Below, one piece after another: positions 17,216 through 24,422 of a stretch of 35,665 nucleotides of DNA (within the stretch, counting starts at the first letter, position 1; each line of letters begins with the position of its first letter). A program made the translations under genes and the position numbers. This stretch comes from Ignavibacteriaceae bacterium. Lineage in GTDB: Bacteria > Bacteroidota > Ignavibacteria > Ignavibacteriales > Ignavibacteriaceae. The stretch covers positions 1 to 35,665 of the forward strand of contig JACAFC010000090.1 of the NCBI GenBank assembly GCA_013388515.1. The letters run 5' to 3'. The notes below the pieces were generated by a model. The model made no database searches and had not been told where the DNA came from. It was given only the letters and a program-made list of their open reading frames with translations.

Positions 17216-17671
17216 ATGATTGAGGAAAAAATAATTAATCTTGGTTTTACACTTCCTGAGGCGCCTAAACCACTGGCATCTTACATTCCTGCTTTAGCTG
17301 TAAATAATTTAGTATTTACTGCTGGTCAATTACCTTTAAAGAATGGTGTTTTGTTATTCAAAGGTAAATTAGGAAAAGATGTTACAGATGATGAAGGTAA
17401 GCAGGCTGCTCAACAGTGTATACTAAACTGTTTAAGTGTTGTAAAAAATGAAATAGGGAGCTTAGATAATATCGATAAAATTATTAAGCTGACTGTATTC
17501 GTAAACAGTGCAGAAGGATTTATTAATCATCCACAGGTTGCTAATGGTGCCTCAGATTTAATAAGAAGTATTTTTGGGGAAAATGGGAAGCACGTTCGAA
17601 GTGCAGTTGGTGTTGCAGAACTTCCTCTTGATGCACCTGTAGAAATAGAGATGGTTTGTAAAACTATTTAG
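17216..17671 (+). CDS. RidA/YjgF-family protein (enamine/imine deaminase-like)
   Basis: 151 residues, the size of the longer RidA subfamily. Features include LVFTAGQLPLKNG near the N-terminus, LDNIDKIIKLTVFVNS in the middle and the signature RSAVGVAELPLDAPVEIEM, whose Arg128 and Glu140 match the catalytic Arg and a conserved Glu of RidA. RidA hydrolyses reactive 2-aminoacrylate and other enamines released by pyridoxal phosphate enzymes. Subfamilies lacking full activity also exist, so the substrate is not certain. The gene converges with trpA and their stop ends overlap by eight bases. Since TrpB is a PLP enzyme that passes through an aminoacrylate intermediate, the placement is suggestive but may be accidental. 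Confidence 0.88.
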   Translation: MIEEKIINLGFTLPEAPKPLASYIPALAVNNLVFTAGQLPLKNGVLLFKGKLGKDVTDDEGKQAAQQCILNCLSVVKNEIGSLDNIDKIIKLTVFVNSAEGFINHPQVANGASDLIRSIFGENGKHVRSAVGVAELPLDAPVEIEMVCKTI

Positions 17672-18455
17672 TATTTATTGATGTCTTAAACTCTTTTACA
17701 AAGGTAAGGGTATTTCGAAAATCTTCATTGTCCATCATCAAAGATTTTACAATTGCACTTCCAACAATAACTCCATTACAATAAGGGGCAAATAGTGCTG
17801 CATCTTGAGTAGATTTAATTCCAAAACCTACAAGTAAGGGGTTTTTTGTTACTAAATGTGATACTTTGATAACTAGACTCTTTGATTCTTCCATATCTTG
17901 AATTTGTCGTCCTGTAGTACCAGTAGTGCTTACCAAGTAAAGAAATCCCTTACTCAATTCATCAATCTTTTTAATCCTTTTATCAGAAGTGGTTGGAGCT
18001 GCAAGCAAGATAACATCCAATTCACTAAATGCATTAGTATAAAAATCGTCGTACTCATCCAAAGGTACATCTGGCACAATTATTCCATTCACACCACAAT
18101 TAACTGCATCAGCGGCAAAGTTTTTAACCCCATATTTAAGTAGAGGATTTGCGTACCCCATCAAAATAATTGGTTTATCTGATTTTTTTCTAATCTGCTC
18201 GGCATAAGAAAGTGTAAGCTTGATATTCACTCCATTTTGCAATGCTCTAAAAGATGAATATTGAATAGTAGGTCCATCCGCCAAAGGGTCGCTAAATGGA
18301 AAGCCAATTTCTATCATATCTGCACCGGCATCTAGTATCTGCAAAGCTAGTTGAGTGAAATTATTCTTGTTGGGAAAACCACTAGTTAAAAAGACTGACA
18401 ATACTTTCTCCCCATAACTATTTTTCCTTATTATATAATCTGAGATAAAAGACAA
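17664..18455 (-). CDS. trpA: Tryptophan synthase alpha chain
   Basis: 263 residues, last gene of the trp operon. It cleaves indole-3-glycerol phosphate and channels indole to TrpB. The catalytic pair is present at the same numbers as in E. coli: Glu49 (MIEIGFPFSDP) and Asp60 (LADGPTIQ). The phosphate-binding loops (GFGIKS and VGSAIVK) are also intact. Translation starts at a TTG 23 bases after trpB. The 3' end overlaps the convergent RidA-family gene by eight bases, so no separate terminator fits between them. The call is firm. Confidence 0.97.
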   Translation of the reverse strand: MSFISDYIIRKNSYGEKVLSVFLTSGFPNKNNFTQLALQILDAGADMIEIGFPFSDPLADGPTIQYSSFRALQNGVNIKLTLSYAEQIRKKSDKPIILMGYANPLLKYGVKNFAADAVNCGVNGIIVPDVPLDEYDDFYTNAFSELDVILLAAPTTSDKRIKKIDELSKGFLYLVSTTGTTGRQIQDMEESKSLVIKVSHLVTKNPLLVGFGIKSTQDAALFAPYCNGVIVGSAIVKSLMMDNEDFRNTLTFVKEFKTSINTK

Positions 18456-18478
18456 TCGGATTCCTTCTTAAATTTATT

Positions 18479-19684
18479 TCACATTTTAGTATTTAAATTT
18501 TGTTGAATTGATATTAAATCTTTGTCACCTCTACCACTAATATTAACAATTACTATTTCATCCTTTTGGGTATTGGGCATAAGATGTTCTAGATATGCAA
18601 CAGCATGAGAAGTTTCAAGTGCTGGAATTATTCCTTCAAGTGAAGACAATTGTTTTGCTGCTTGTAGTGCTTCTTCGTCTGTGACAGATTTATATTCGAC
18701 ATCCATTGTATCTTTTAGGTAACTATGTTCTGGTCCCACACCTGGATAATCAAGTCCTGCAGAGATTGAATGAACAGGTGAAATTTGTCCATCATCATCC
18801 TGAAGAAGATATGTTTTCATCCCATGAAAAATTCCCTGTTTTCCTAAAGACAGTGTTGCACTGTGCTGGTTAGTGTGCAAACCCAAGCCGGCTGCCTCAA
18901 TTCCAATTAAACGTGTAGCTGTACGAATAAAAGGGTAAAAAATTCCTATTGCATTACTTCCTCCTCCAACACATGCAACTATGTAATCCGGCAATTTATT
19001 TTCAATGGAAATAATTTGACTTTTTGTCTCAATACCAATTATCGATTGAAAATCTCTCACAATCATTGGATACGGATGAGGACCCACTACCGAACCTATA
19101 ATGTAGTGAGTATTTTTAATATTTGTGACCCAATCTCTTATTGCCTCACTTGTTGCATCTTTTAGCGTCTTACTTCCAGTAGTTACGGGTATTACTTTAG
19201 CGCCTAATAAATTCATCCTGAAGACATTTAAACTTTGCCTCTCCATATCTATCTCACCCATGTACACAGAGCACTGTAAACCAAATTTTGCACATACCGT
19301 AGCTGTGGCAACTCCATGTTGGCCTGCTCCAGTTTCAGCAATTATTCTTGTCTTTCCTAATTTTTTTGCTAGTAAAATTTGACCAAGTGTATTGTTGATT
19401 TTATGAGCGCCAGTGTGGCAAAGATCTTCTCGTTTCAGATAAATTTTTGCTCTGTTAAAAAATTTGGTAAGATTTTCTGCGAAGGTTAATGGGGTTGGTC
19501 TTCCTGTAAAACTGCTATGCAGTGAATTTAACTCTTTTTGAAAATTCTTATCCTGGCGTAATTTTAAATAAACTTCTTCTAGTTCTTGTAAAGGTGATAT
19601 TAAGGTTTCTGGAACAAACCTTCCGCCATAATTACCATATCGCCCTTTCTTGTCTGGATTCTTATAAATTATTTTATTAGTCAT
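18479..19684 (-). CDS. trpB: Tryptophan synthase beta chain
   Basis: 401 residues, beginning at ATG 12 bases after trpF. It condenses indole with serine using pyridoxal phosphate. The PLP lysine is Lys95 in [10 protein letters not shown], the catalytic Glu is Glu117 in AETGAGQHG, and the phosphate loop is GGGSNAIG. The N-terminus ([15 protein letters not shown]) is typical of TrpB1, the partner of TrpA, rather than TrpB2, which agrees with the neighbouring trpA. The C-terminal SGRGDKD, which contacts the cofactor ring, is also present. No oddities were seen. Confidence 0.98.
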
Positions 19685-19696
19685 GCTATAGTATCT

Positions 19697-20317
19697 TTAA
19701 TCAATTTCTTTCCTAAAGTGATCAACTAGGTTGAAAAATTCTTTCAGCTTCTTCTCGTCTTTTCGTCCAGGAATACTTTCAACTGAGGATGACAAATCTA
19801 TTGCTGCAGGTTTAATGTTTTGGTAGATATATTCAAGATTTGCTGATTTGATTCCTCCAGATAGAATAATTTTATTTCTTAGCTCAAGCGGTATTTCCTC
19901 CCAATCAAATTTTTTTCCAGTTCCTCCGAACTCTATTGGGGAATAAGAATCGAACAAGTATGATACGTTATTATATTGATTTATGATTGAATAATTGAAA
20001 TTAGTTCCAACTCTAAAACTTTTTATAACAGGTAAAACTATTTTTCTAACTGTATCAGGGCTCTCATCACCATGAAGCTGAATAGCATTTAGTTTGATGT
20101 CGGATCCAATTTCATTTATAGTATCAGCCAATTCATTTACAAACACACCAATTTTCATTGTAAACGGAGACAATTTTCTTATTATTTCTTTAGCAGCTGA
20201 TGGTTCAATAAATCTTTTGCTTTTGGGGTAGAAAATAAAACCCAAAGCATCAGCACCTAATTTCTCACAGAGCAGGGCATCATTAATGTTAGTAATTCCA
20301 CAGATTTTAATTTTCAA
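19697..20317 (-). CDS. trpF: Phosphoribosylanthranilate isomerase
   Basis: 206 residues. It converts phosphoribosylanthranilate to its ribulose form. The general base Cys is at residue 6 in KIKICGITN, and the general acid Asp is in AIDLSSSVESIPGRKD; the usual SSG there is SSS. LGFIFYPKSKR, NAIQLHGDE and the phosphate-binding LSGGIK are conserved. It starts at a TTG that shares bases with the trpC stop (TTGA), so it is probably translated by ribosomes finishing trpC. It is a stand-alone gene, not fused to trpC as in E. coli. Confidence 0.96.
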   Translation of the reverse strand: MKIKICGITNINDALLCEKLGADALGFIFYPKSKRFIEPSAAKEIIRKLSPFTMKIGVFVNELADTINEIGSDIKLNAIQLHGDESPDTVRKIVLPVIKSFRVGTNFNYSIINQYNNVSYLFDSYSPIEFGGTGKKFDWEEIPLELRNKIILSGGIKSANLEYIYQNIKPAAIDLSSSVESIPGRKDEKKLKEFFNLVDHFRKEID

Positions 20318-21102
20318 GCTTTACACCATTCTTTAAGTTCCTGTATTCTGGATTTTACATCATTTGCTTGCATAAGATATTCGCCAACTAAAATAGCATT
20401 TGTTCCAGCTTTTTTAAGTCTTGATACTGCAAATTTAGAATTGATACCGCTTTCGGATACTAAATATATACTGTCTGGTAACTTTTGTGATAAGATCTCA
20501 GTCGTTTCAAGATTTATCGAAAAGTCAATTAAGTTACGATTATTAACACCAATTAGCTTATTCAAACTAAAATTTATTTTTTGCAGCTGATCAACTGTGT
20601 GCAATTCAAGTAACACTTCCATTCCGCACTCAAAAGCTGCGTGTGTAAGTTCAATAATTTGACCTTGAGACAATACTTCTGATATCAAAAGTATAATATC
20701 TGCTCCATTTGCTTTAGATTCAAAAACTTGATATTCATCTATAATAAAGTCATTTCGCAGCAACGGTACTTGCTTGTGTTTTGCAATGTCCAGTAAAAAT
20801 TCTTTACTTCCTTTGAAAAATTTTTCATCAGTAAGGATTGATATTGCATCCACTCCTGTGTTCAGATAAATATCTGCTATTCCGATGTGACTAAAATCTT
20901 CTCTAATAACACCTTTTGATGGACTGGCTTTTTTTATTTCAGCAATAATGGCAATGTCTTTACGGTTTTTTAGAGATTCCATAAAAGACAAAGTTGCTTT
21001 CGAAAAGAATTCCATTTCTCTAAAAGAATTAAGTGTGAAAGTCTTTTTTAGTTTAGCAGCTTCTTCTTTTTTGATTTCAATTATTTGATTGAGAATGTTC
21101 AA
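20314..21102 (-). CDS. trpC: Indole-3-glycerol phosphate synthase with Lys-to-Asn change in active site
   Basis: 262 residues, an (alpha/beta)8 barrel closing the indole ring. Conserved parts are IIAEIKKASPSKG (catalytic Glu55, Lys57), AISILTDEKFFKGS, MEVLLELHT, IGVNNRNL and LVSESGI. One oddity stands out. Where the family has LRKDFIIDEYQ, this protein has LRNDFIIDEYQ, so Asn117 (codon AAT, 20752-20754) replaces the Lys that acts as general acid in the well-studied archaeal enzyme (Lys110). Translation begins at a TTG overlapping the trpD stop as TTGA. Function as TrpC is supported by everything else, but activity could be lowered or the proton donor could be another residue. Confidence 0.95.
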   Translation of the reverse strand: MNILNQIIEIKKEEAAKLKKTFTLNSFREMEFFSKATLSFMESLKNRKDIAIIAEIKKASPSKGVIREDFSHIGIADIYLNTGVDAISILTDEKFFKGSKEFLLDIAKHKQVPLLRNDFIIDEYQVFESKANGADIILLISEVLSQGQIIELTHAAFECGMEVLLELHTVDQLQKINFSLNKLIGVNNRNLIDFSINLETTEILSQKLPDSIYLVSESGINSKFAVSRLKKAGTNAILVGEYLMQANDVKSRIQELKEWCKA

Positions 21103-22115
21103 AATTTATTACTAAAAGTTCTTAGTTCATTTAATTTATTCAAAGCTGCTCCACTTAGAATAGAATCTTCGGCAGCAGCTTTACACTCCATTAATTCATT
21201 CGAGTAGCCTGCATTATACAAAGCTAATGCTGTATTTGCAGCAATTGTATGAAAAGCACCGTTTTGTGATTTGTTTTCAAATACATCTAAAATAATTTTA
21301 GCATTCAATTTCGAGGTATCGCCTTTTATTTGTTCGTTATCAACGAAAGGATATCCGAATGTTTTATTAGATATGCAGTATTCCTTTACATCAGACTCTT
21401 TATTGTATTCGAATAATGATGTTGTCCCTCCAAGCGAAATCTCGTCAAATTTGTTTTCGCTGCAAACAAAAGTAACCTTATCAAAATTTAAATAGTCTGC
21501 TGCTTGTGACATTAGCTTTGCTGTTTTTTCATTGTAAACCCCTATAAGCTGCCGCTTAGTTCCGGCCGGATTTGTTAAGGGTCCAAGAATATTAAAAATG
21601 GTTTTTGTACCGAGTTCATTTCTTACAGGAGCAGCATATTTCATAGCTGGATGATAAATAGGTGCGAACAAGAATGCGATTCCAATTTTATTAAGAGCTT
21701 CTTCTGACTGAGGTGGAGTTAGATTAATATTTATTCCTAATTCAATAAGTACATCTGCACTGCCGCATTTACTGGATACGGATCGGTTACCATGTTTAGC
21801 AACCTTTATCCCAGCGCCGGCAGCGGCAAATGCAGTTGCTGTAGAAATGTTAAATGAGCCGGATTCGTCTCCTCCTGTTCCGCATACATCAATTACATTT
21901 TTTTCAGCGCAGATTATCTTAATGGATTTATCTCTCATAGCCTGTGCAAATCCAGCAATTTCTATTGCTGTTTCTCCTTTAGATTTTAACGCCACTAAAA
22001 ACCCAGCAAGTAATGAATTATTGACTTTTCCCGACATGATTTCTGTCATCACATAATAAGATTCACTTAATGTTAAATCTTCTTTCTCAATTACTTTCTC
22101 CAAGTATTCTTTCAT
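21099..22115 (-). CDS. trpD: Anthranilate phosphoribosyltransferase
   Basis: 338 residues, stand-alone and not fused to trpG. It joins anthranilate to PRPP. The PRPP/anthranilate signature is complete: DVCGTGGDESGSFNISTATA, then KHGNRSVSSKCGSADVLIELG, and later RNELGTKTIFNILGPLTNPA. The ATG start has GGAG eight bases upstream, one of the best ribosome sites in the operon. It lies 22 bases after trpG and overlaps trpC by four bases. No missing residue was noticed. Confidence 0.97.
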   Translation of the reverse strand: MKEYLEKVIEKEDLTLSESYYVMTEIMSGKVNNSLLAGFLVALKSKGETAIEIAGFAQAMRDKSIKIICAEKNVIDVCGTGGDESGSFNISTATAFAAAGAGIKVAKHGNRSVSSKCGSADVLIELGININLTPPQSEEALNKIGIAFLFAPIYHPAMKYAAPVRNELGTKTIFNILGPLTNPAGTKRQLIGVYNEKTAKLMSQAADYLNFDKVTFVCSENKFDEISLGGTTSLFEYNKESDVKEYCISNKTFGYPFVDNEQIKGDTSKLNAKIILDVFENKSQNGAFHTIAANTALALYNAGYSNELMECKAAAEDSILSGAALNKLNELRTFSNKF

Positions 22116-22137
22116 CTCATTTCTCCTGTGAACTTCC

Positions 22138-22704
22138 TTATTTTTTCAGCCAGTTATTGATAATTTTTTCGCCTTCTATAGTCAAAATAGATTCTGGGTG
22201 GAATTGGATTCCTTCGACAGGAAATGTTTTGTGCCTCACTCCCATAATTATTCCATCGTCGGTATATGCAGAAATTTCTAATACATTTGGCAGCGATTTT
22301 CTTTCAATTATTAACGAGTGATATCTTGTTGCTTCAAATTTTTGTGGAATTTTTGTAAAAATTGTTTTTCCATCGTGGTTTATTTTTGAGGTTTTTCCAT
22401 GAAATAAACATGGTGCTTTGATTACTTTGCCACCATACACAACGCCAATTGCTTGGTGTCCTAAACAAACACCTAGTGTTGGAATATCTTTACCGAACAA
22501 TTCTATTGCTTTCAAGGTAATTTTTGAATCTTCAGGTTTTCCTGGGCCAGGTGAAATTAGAATTTTATCTGGTTTCATTTCAAAGATTTCAGATTCGGTT
22601 ATTTCATCATTTCTTTTCACCATAATCTGATGGGTATTATTGCCTACAATTTGTACTAAGTTATAAGTGAAAGAATCGTAATTATCAATTATCAGGATTG
22701 TCAT
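22138..22704 (-). CDS. trpG: Anthranilate synthase glutamine amidotransferase component
   Basis: 188 residues from the ATG at 22704 (a TTG one codon earlier is also possible). It supplies ammonia from glutamine to TrpE. The catalytic triad is visible: Cys80 in GVCLGHQ and His169/Glu171 in QFHPES; the oxyanion loop ISPGPGKPED is intact. It overlaps the end of trpE by 20 bases, which suggests coupled translation and equal subunit supply. In some organisms such a protein also serves PabB; the operon position favours tryptophan synthesis here. Confidence 0.97.
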   Translation of the reverse strand: MTILIIDNYDSFTYNLVQIVGNNTHQIMVKRNDEITESEIFEMKPDKILISPGPGKPEDSKITLKAIELFGKDIPTLGVCLGHQAIGVVYGGKVIKAPCLFHGKTSKINHDGKTIFTKIPQKFEATRYHSLIIERKSLPNVLEISAYTDDGIIMGVRHKTFPVEGIQFHPESILTIEGEKIINNWLKK

Positions 22705-24190
22705 CAATCACCTCTGCGTATTTCAAAGCAGTAATCATTACTGCGGATTTATTTTTTATTTCTTTAGCTTCTAGTGATGGACTGCTGTCAGCAACAATTC
22801 CGGCACCAGCTTGCCAATAAATGTTTTCACCTTTCGTAAATAAAGTTCTTATTGCTATGCACATATCTAAATTACCAGAAAAATCAAAATAACCAACAGC
22901 ACCTGCATACACATTTCTAGCTGTGCTCTCGTAATTATTTATGAGCTGAATTGCTCTGATTTTTGGTGCACCGGTTACTGTGCCTGCAGGAAAGCATGCC
23001 ATAAGTGCATCAATTGAATCTTTATCGTCTGCAAGTTCACCCTCAACTTTAGATACGAGATGCATTACATGAGAATATTTTTGAACTACCATCTTTTCTA
23101 TGACATTAACGGTACCGAATTTGCAGACTCGACCAAGATCATTTCGACCTAAATCTACTAACATTGTGTGTTCGGCTAATTCTTTAGGATCATTTATTAA
23201 TTCGCTTTCTAAATAGTTTTCTTCATCCAAGTTCTTACCTCGTTTTCTGGTACCTGCAATTGGCAGCACTTGAGCTTTTTTGTTTTTAACCTTTAAAAGA
23301 TCTTCCGGCGATGTGCCGAGTATTGAAAATTCATTTTCAAATTCCAGAAAATACATATATGGCGAAGGGTTTATAATTCTTAAAGCGCGGTAAACATTTA
23401 AAGGATCACCTTTATACTTTGCAGAAAATCTTTTTGACAATACAATCTGAAAAATATCGCCTTCAATTATATTTGTTTTACCTCCATCAACTTGTCTATA
23501 AAATTCAGAGGGATCAAAATTCTCCGAAATGTCATTTAAAACAATGAAATCAGTTTCGTAATGAATAGGTTTTGTTAATTCTATTCGAAGATTATTTAAA
23601 ATTTTTTTAGCTGAATTGTACACCATGGGCAAATCGGTATCTTCATCAACTACCACATTTGATATGAGAATGATTTGATGTTTATGATGGTCAAAAGCAA
23701 GTATTGTATTGTAAATACCAAATATTGAATCTGGATTTTCACGAATGTCAGGCTCCGTAACTTTAGATGAATCGAATTTTATGGTTTTTTCAATTAGTGC
23801 AATATTTTCATAGCCAAGAAAACCAACTAATCCTCCAGTAAAATCGGGGAGTTCCTCAAGTTTTGGTTGTTTGTACTTATTTATTTCAAATCTAATATGC
23901 TCAAAAATTGACTTGTTAAATACGCTTACTTCTTTTTGCGATTGTTCAGTGATCTTATAATGTTTATTAGAAAATATTTTACTTGGGTTTTTACCAATAA
24001 AAGAATACCTAGCCATATTTTCTGATTTTTCAACGGATTCTAGGAGAAAACTTTGTTTGCCGGTTTCTCTAATTTTTAAATATGCTAAAACCGGTGTTAG
24101 CAAATCGGCAGTAATAATCTCATAAACCGGAATTAGATTATAATCTCTCGTATAGTTTTTGAAAGTTTCAAAATCCATTGAAAATTTCAT
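22685..24190 (-). CDS. trpE: Anthranilate synthase component I
   Basis: 501 residues. It makes anthranilate from chorismate with ammonia from TrpG. The C-terminal chorismate-binding half has GTSPEDLLKVK, PIAGTRKRG, GTVTGAPKIRAIQLI and AGAGIVADSSP. The N-terminal half has the tryptophan feedback-site motif LLES at residues 49-52, so feedback inhibition by tryptophan is expected. The start is the ATG at 24190; an internal ATG four codons later is possible. It is the first structural gene of trpEGDCFBA, lying 38 bases after the terminator stem of the leader, and its transcription depends on read-through of that terminator. Confidence 0.97.
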   Translation of the reverse strand: MKFSMDFETFKNYTRDYNLIPVYEIITADLLTPVLAYLKIRETGKQSFLLESVEKSENMARYSFIGKNPSKIFSNKHYKITEQSQKEVSVFNKSIFEHIRFEINKYKQPKLEELPDFTGGLVGFLGYENIALIEKTIKFDSSKVTEPDIRENPDSIFGIYNTILAFDHHKHQIILISNVVVDEDTDLPMVYNSAKKILNNLRIELTKPIHYETDFIVLNDISENFDPSEFYRQVDGGKTNIIEGDIFQIVLSKRFSAKYKGDPLNVYRALRIINPSPYMYFLEFENEFSILGTSPEDLLKVKNKKAQVLPIAGTRKRGKNLDEENYLESELINDPKELAEHTMLVDLGRNDLGRVCKFGTVNVIEKMVVQKYSHVMHLVSKVEGELADDKDSIDALMACFPAGTVTGAPKIRAIQLINNYESTARNVYAGAVGYFDFSGNLDMCIAIRTLFTKGENIYWQAGAGIVADSSPSLEAKEIKNKSAVMITALKYAEVIDDNPDN

Positions 24191-24227: not shown

Positions 24228-24261
24228 GCAAAAAACCCTTCCCAGTTTACTGAGAAGGGTT
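24228..24261 (-). terminator. trp attenuator terminator in front of trpE
   Basis: On the minus strand AACCCTTCTCAG (24261-24250) pairs over all 12 positions, one being a G-U, with CTGGGAAGGGTT (24245-24234) around a TAAA loop, followed by a run of T. It lies between the leader peptide stop and trpE, where a terminator would block the operon, so it acts as an attenuator. Confidence 0.92.
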
Positions 24262-24369
24262 AGTGGTAAAATTATTTTCTCAAGCTCACTGAGTCATATT
24301 AAAAGATATACTCCACCACCACCAAAAATTTGTGTTGGCTTGTATTTGCGAGTGATAATATGACTCAGT
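24250..24369 (-). promoter_or_regulatory. Competing RNA segments of the trp attenuator
   Basis: Besides the terminator, two pairings are visible. A perfect 14-bp inverted repeat joins ACTGAGTCATATTA (24369-24356, codons 5-9 of the leader peptide) with TAATATGACTCAGT (24301-24288, last codons and first base of the stop). Second, TTGAGAA (24283-24277), three bases past the stop, can pair over 7 bp with TTCTCAG (24256-24250), the inner 5' arm of the terminator. A ribosome that finishes the peptide would cover 24277-24283 and leave the terminator free; one stalled at the Trp codons would leave that segment open to form an antiterminator. The mechanism is inferred from known trp attenuation; folding energies were not computed. 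Confidence 0.65.
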
Positions 24370-24381
24370 TTTCTTTTTCAT
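24286..24381 (-). CDS. trpL: trp operon leader peptide with four consecutive Trp codons
   Basis: A 31-codon frame begins at ATG 24381 (MKKKTESYYHSQ) and contains NFWWWWS, with Trp at codons 20-23 (24324-24313), and ends at TGA 24288-24286. Four Trp codons in a row are very unlikely by chance. The position between a promoter and a terminator upstream of trpE is that of a trpL leader peptide. The probable promoter element ends 11 bases before the ATG, so the mRNA leader is only a few bases long and has no Shine-Dalgarno; translation would be leaderless or nearly so. The peptide itself likely has no function beyond making the ribosome sense charged tRNA-Trp. Confidence 0.88.
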   Translation of the reverse strand: MKKKTESYYHSQIQANTNFWWWWSISFNMTQ

Positions 24382-24392
24382 AATTACTTGTG

Positions 24393-24422
24393 CAAATATA
24401 GAACACTTTAGTTGTTTGTCAA
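24393..24422 (-). promoter_or_regulatory. trp operon promoter
   Basis: On the minus strand TTGACA (24422-24417) is followed after 16 bases by TATATTTG (24400-24393). The second box is an exact match to the Bacteroidota TAnnTTTG element and the first contains the matching TTG. The expected transcription start is about 24385-24388, four to seven bases before the leader ATG. Confidence 0.8.

Follow-up and report, generated by a model that had tools for sequence, protein, structure and literature searches.

A putative ribosome-mediated attenuator with tandem tryptophan codons, probably nearly leaderless and modular, precedes the trp operon in Ignavibacteriales

Results

A candidate attenuator upstream of trpEGDCFBA

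The trp operon of an Ignavibacteriales bacterium is preceded by a short upstream open reading frame (uORF) with four consecutive Trp codons, an RNA stem that encloses these codons, and an intrinsic terminator, an arrangement that is very probably best explained as a ribosome-mediated transcription attenuator. The original prediction, made from the letters of the DNA, was of a complete trp attenuator with a WWWW leader peptide; it is supported by the full set of elements, by their conservation in relatives, and by covariation of both the stem and the terminator, in a geometry compatible with the footprints of a ribosome. From these features we infer the transcription start, translation of the uORF, stalling, RNA switching and a response to tryptophan.

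The leader lies within a window of 35,665 nucleotides, the whole stretch of DNA that was analysed, in a 3.89 Mb assembly of 293 contigs. TrpE relatives among named records are mostly from Ignavibacteria and Ignavibacteriales metagenome-assembled genomes. GTDB places the class Ignavibacteria under Bacteroidota, and the NCBI phylum for the class is Ignavibacteriota; the initial description of a "Bacteroidota-type genome" was right in substance. Gene order downstream of the leader is trpEGDCFBA, with trpE starting at 24190 and the open reading frames overlapping or nearly so. The features of the locus, all on the minus strand, are as follows.

24393 to 24400, minus strand: promoter box of the -7 type, TATATTTG (Bacteroidota TAnnTTTG), from sequence
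24286 to 24381, minus strand: leader uORF (trpL-like) of 31 codons plus stop, peptide MKKKTESYYHSQIQANTNFWWWWSISFNMTQ, from sequence and from conservation of a Trp-bearing uORF before trpE
24356 to 24369, minus strand: segment 1, 5' arm of a 14-bp stem, codons 5-9 of the uORF, from covariation and the swap test
24313 to 24324, minus strand: four TGG codons (WWWW, codons 20-23), the putative stall codons, from sequence
24288 to 24301, minus strand: segment 2, which pairs with segment 1 as the 3' arm and falls in the final codons of the uORF, from covariation and the swap test
24277 to 24283, minus strand: putative antiterminator arm UUGAGAA, 5-11 nt downstream of the stop codon's first base, from the motif in relatives and constrained folding
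24249 to 24261, minus strand: segment 3, 5' arm of the terminator, from sequence and covariation
24234 to 24246, minus strand: segment 4, 3' arm of the terminator, running into T6 (24235-24230), from sequence and covariation
22685 to 24190, minus strand: trpE, which opens the operon and encodes anthranilate synthase component I, matching NCBIfam TIGR00564 above cut-off
17664 to 22707, minus strand: trpG, trpD, trpC, trpF, trpB and trpA, the contiguous remainder of the operon, with an NCBIfam match for each protein

This layout agrees with what had been proposed in order along the minus strand: a promoter, a 31-codon peptide with four consecutive Trp codons, an inverted repeat of 14 bp spanning the peptide gene (24369-24356 with 24301-24288, 100% complementary), a short segment past the stop able to pair with a terminator arm (UUGAGAA at 24283-24277, complementary to UUCUCAG in the 5' arm), and a 12-bp terminator with a T tract before trpE, whose arms prove to be 13 nt long with one G-U pair (12-13 bp) and are followed by T6. 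The tandem codons of the uORF thus specify the product of its own operon, and an intrinsic terminator stands between the uORF and the first gene. Elsewhere in the source genome, runs of four TGG codons are few. Folding energy of the whole leader is far below that of dinucleotide shuffles (z = -4.9, none of 200 as good).

The start of the uORF has features of its own. TTGAC at 24422-24418 (minus strand) is likely the upstream promoter element, and the position of the promoter box would set the transcription start at about 24389-24386. Among 28 Ignavibacteriales leaders, 25 have a TAnnTTTG-like box ending 4-20 nt before the leader ATG, against 6.5 expected from shuffles, and motifs resembling a Shine-Dalgarno sequence were found in none of 45 leaders, that of the source genome included. 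The 5' untranslated region is therefore probably no more than 5-8 nt long, which would make the uORF nearly leaderless.

No Rfam family matches the window at its gathering score, and the matches below cut-off near the leader include no amino-acid leader or T-box family; two identities suggested there, PyrR and ncr1575, were discarded as weak sub-threshold matches sitting on the terminator region. TrpR (PF01371) was found above cut-off in none of the genomes of 21 relatives, with E. coli positive as a control, a result that favours attenuation. Control of the trpE leader by a riboswitch, a T-box or TrpR is thus unsupported.

Conservation of the leader before trpE

Loci in 30 Ignavibacteriales, the source genome among them, were chosen by TrpE only, and the choice is therefore not biased by the leader. 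A Trp leader precedes trpE in all 30, and 29 pass an automatic test that asks for a Trp-rich open reading frame and a terminator within 350 nt of trpE; in the exception (L115) the leader lies 276 nt upstream. One member missed by the first open reading frame filter (L126) carries two Trp codons that are not adjacent, together with a terminator. Applied to shuffled sequences the same test gave 0 of 600 positives, and none on reversed strands; judged against these controls, conservation in the order rules out a chance origin of the leader. Four further members of the order were also positive.

Beyond the order, the automatic test was passed by 6 of 21 loci from other orders of the class and by 23 of 35 from other classes of the phylum. 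Further leaders (L058, L087, L101, L110) were recognized by eye, and in several of the negatives another gene seems to stand immediately before trpE. WWW leaders stand before trpE in most of the other classes sampled (L077-L111), some of them with antiterminators of 10-15 bp. No WWW leader was found before trpE in one family (f27) with genomes of 2-3 Mb (L094, L095, L096, L098).

Of the 84 genomes of the order that bear trpE, 78 gave a match 7-222 nt ahead of this gene with a covariance model built from 22 leaders and run without reference to trpE. Only two of the 72 matches at E <= 1e-5 lie elsewhere, and both are leaders of other amino-acid genes. Among the six genomes missed, two that were inspected (G036, G232) have Trp codons and a terminator, and a third (G194) is the one with the two spaced codons (L126). 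Peptide sequences drift, and the Trp codons, the stem and the terminator are retained next to trpE. The original prediction had named relatives lacking the Trp codons or the terminator as the finding that would count against it; by both the TrpE-chosen sample and the model, relatives have both.

A covarying stem encloses the Trp codons

As had been noted from the single sequence, the strongest upstream hairpin encloses the Trp codons, and comparison of leaders adds that its stem covaries. In 22 aligned leaders 82.5% of cells in the 14-bp stem are paired and 7 of its 14 pairs have changed on both sides; for the terminator helix the values are 99.2% of cells and 7 of 12 pairs. Stem and terminator together contain 36 cells with double changes against 11.4 in shuffled data, and the signal collapses in slid controls. 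In a swap test, segments preceding the Trp codons pair far worse with the post-Trp segments of other species than with their own (0 of 5000 permutations, both inside and outside the order). Three relatives (L121, L134, L049) have the stop codon moved further upstream and retain segment 2 as RNA, so that the stem is conserved as RNA and not for the peptide. The core of the stem does not overlap UUGAGAA, and a weak extension of it overlaps by 2 nt only; in five relatives (L122, L137, L139, L140, L141) the same nucleotides serve both the upstream stem and the antiterminator.

The putative antiterminator

In the source sequence the antiterminator is the weakest link of the attenuator reading. The claim of a short arm of 7 bp holds as to length, and the helix taken alone is no better than in shuffles (z -0.6, 23 of 100); its energy as a duplex is -7.6 kcal/mol, compared with about -18 for the terminator. 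Support for the pairing comes from relatives. Most of the 22 leaders have a TGAGA(A)-like motif located around stop +4 to +9, and a matched change is found in one (L132), where CTGTAA in the arm faces TTGCAG in the terminator. As a group, Ignavibacteriales show antiterminator pairing of 5.72 nt against 4.55 in shuffles (0 of 60), with a folded energy that is weaker than shuffled, and the swap test for this helix is only modest within the order (48 of 5000). Outside the order, several lineages have antiterminators of 10-15 bp (z about -5), which co-vary with their own terminators (0 of 5000).

Folding was also constrained by a ribosome of assumed footprint size placed either on the Trp codons or on the stop. 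In the source leader the 5' arm of the terminator is then paired upstream over about 6.4 nt with the ribosome on Trp and 0.5 nt with it on the stop; median values for 28 Ignavibacteriales are 5.9-6.2 versus 0.75 nt, and those for 17 leaders outside the order 8.0 versus 1.4 nt. Under the same assumed footprint, the position of UUGAGAA fits an arm that is free in the first state and covered in the second. In the three relatives with stops further upstream, a ribosome at the stop would leave the antiterminator arm uncovered.

Predicted mechanism and alternatives

The attenuator would operate as follows. RNA polymerase is expected to start just upstream of the uORF, which would let a ribosome load close to the very 5' end. 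Under a shortage of charged tRNA-Trp, the ribosome would stall on WWWW, inside the loop closed by segments 1 and 2, with a footprint that stops short of segment 2. UUGAGAA would then be free to pair with the 5' arm of the terminator, the terminator would be absent, and trpEGDCFBA would be transcribed. With plentiful tryptophan the ribosome would reach UGA and its footprint would lie over UUGAGAA, allowing the terminator to form and transcription to end. After release of the ribosome, or when the uORF is not translated, the segment 1/2 stem would re-form and hinder the antiterminator; it may also pause RNA polymerase during ribosome loading. Besides the weak antiterminator, three features speak against this scheme: the near lack of overlap between the stem and UUGAGAA, the gap of 31 nt from segment 1 to the Trp codons, by which a stalled ribosome would leave segment 1 uncovered, and the early stops of L121, L134 and L049.

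The relative strength of the stem invites another reading, in which a true antiterminator is lacking, switching is done by the 14-bp stem itself (by pausing RNA polymerase, for instance, or by coupling it to the ribosome), and the position of the ribosome alone decides termination. Within the order, covariation of the stem is far stronger than that of the antiterminator, whose energy is also weaker than shuffled; this reading is nonetheless unlikely, considering that the post-stop motif is kept in most of the 22 relatives, with its one matched change, and that other classes, as well as a Cys leader of the same genome described below, have strong antiterminators at the expected place. Control at the level of translation or by Rho, whereby stalling would expose or hide the initiation region of trpE and the intrinsic terminator would not be the target, is suggested by the proximity of the trpE start (95 nt) and by comparable uses of uORFs known in other bacteria. 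We consider it very unlikely in view of the strong terminator with T6 before trpE, paired and covarying over the 22 relatives, and of a whole-leader fold that is dominated by this terminator and not by structure around the trpE start.

Hardly any likelihood attaches to the idea that the terminator belongs to a free-standing gene for a small RNA or small protein, with the Trp codons there by coincidence. Termination would indeed also release the leader as a small RNA of about 155 nt, and rnTrpL of Sinorhizobium meliloti acts in trans (PMC7298713), but the peptide drifts while Trp codons, stem and terminator persist beside trpE, and codons are swapped to suit the downstream gene in related leaders. 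A small-RNA role may nevertheless exist as an additional function of the attenuator leader.

The same design before other amino-acid genes

Twenty matches of the trpE-leader model at sites other than trpE were inspected, and most are leaders with a codon run that suits the next gene, as checked for representatives of the downstream genes by NCBIfam; this matching also speaks for the attenuator reading at trpE. The leaders recognized before such genes, together with one found elsewhere in the source genome, are these.

L202, L203, L204, L212, L213, L217: WWWW leader before TrpB-like enzymes
L201: WFWW leader before trpB
L209, a relative: HHHFH leader before hisG
L216: CCC leader before cysK
L199: CCCC-MM leader before cysH
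L211 (1600-2013), L214, L215: CCCC-MMM leader before O-acetylhomoserine sulfhydrylase (metY)
L266: CCCC-MM leader before O-acetylhomoserine sulfhydrylase
L200, a relative: leader rich in F, W and Y (aromatic) before DAHP synthase
G000:C284:8658-8805 (L252, about 1502-1660), plus strand: CCC leader MNQKLYNNRFELNAIACCCRINTKQSKDFV, followed by a stop, with terminator, upstream of cysE and cysK in the source genome outside the window

In the Cys leader of the source genome the helix between antiterminator and terminator arm has 10 bp (z -6.2, 0 of 300). At all five Cys/Met loci before metY or cysH (L211, L214, L215, L199, L266) the leader terminator is followed by an Rfam SAM riboswitch, and in the two inspected at that point a second terminator lies beyond the riboswitch. 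Terminator sequences differ in most of the leaders before trpB and TrpB-like genes. Several other matches of the model were set aside, five as terminators lacking a matching leader (L206, L207, L208, L210, L218) and one as doubtful, a Cys-containing open reading frame before a secreted-looking protein (L205). An HHHH pattern matched the source genome 28 times, and none of the 20 matches inspected was a plausible leader of a his gene; a TGY-run pattern over the relatives gave mostly noise, a tighter pattern being used in its place.

These sequences make it likely that Ignavibacteriales possess a modular leader-peptide regulon, in which one near-leaderless design of uORF, stem and terminator carries codons matched to the gene behind it (Trp, Cys, His or aromatic). 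Some metY and cysH genes would be placed behind a Cys and Met attenuator and then a SAM riboswitch with its own terminator, forming a two-step gate that senses charged tRNA first and SAM second.

Discussion

The trp attenuator of E. coli (trpL; the Yanofsky model) comprises a uORF with tandem Trp codons, alternative hairpins and an intrinsic terminator before trpE. The Ignavibacteriales leader resembles it in its short tandem-Trp uORF, predicted alternative hairpins, intrinsic terminator and complete downstream trp operon. It differs in that the stem of segments 1 and 2 holds the Trp codons in its loop, 31 nt downstream of segment 1; in the post-stop location of a putative antiterminator arm of only 7 bp; in having probably almost no 5' untranslated region and no Shine-Dalgarno sequence; and in that no TrpR was found in the genomes searched. 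Priority is uncertain, since some attenuators of this group may have been predicted already in a comparative survey by Lopatovskaya et al. from 2010.

Leaderless uORFs with a Trp run are known from trpLE(G) of S. meliloti, which is subject to transcription attenuation and shows no transcriptional repression by tryptophan (PMC7298713); that system is like the one predicted here in both the uORF and attenuation, but is alphaproteobacterial with a peptide of 14 amino acids, and no sequence relation is claimed. In Actinobacteria, classical attenuators with UGG runs have been predicted for trp and trpS, along with Cys-run leaders (PMC1262725); Cys leaders of Mycobacterium lack clear terminators, whereas those of Ignavibacteriales have them, and the lineages differ. 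The uORFC-8-2 motif of Rhodobacterales, a Cys-codon leader with a terminator attributed to ribosome-mediated attenuation (PMC8632094), has two Cys codons before cysS, in contrast to CCC or CCCC before cysE, cysK, cysH and metY. Closer to the present lineage, a paper on Flavobacterium psychrophilum, a member of a related group, reports "strong clues" that amino-acid operons there are preceded by leader-peptide attenuators; trp is not described in its main text, where no comparable anatomy was found (PMC9723704).

The literature searched thus describes trp attenuators in Proteobacteria and Actinobacteria, with none found that has this lineage, architecture and modular reuse. The mechanism is already known, trp attenuation being a textbook example; the lineage, the architecture and the reuse seem undescribed in that literature. 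The predicted departures from known attenuators are the enclosure of the Trp codons by a covarying stem, the post-stop antiterminator arm, the nearly leaderless uORF and the reuse across pathways.

The trp leader is the rule before trpE across an order and occurs frequently in the phylum's other classes. With this family of leaders, the loading and stalling of ribosomes on uORFs that are nearly leaderless could readily be tested. The tandem arrangement of Cys/Met leader and SAM riboswitch would, if true, be an unusual natural logic gate.
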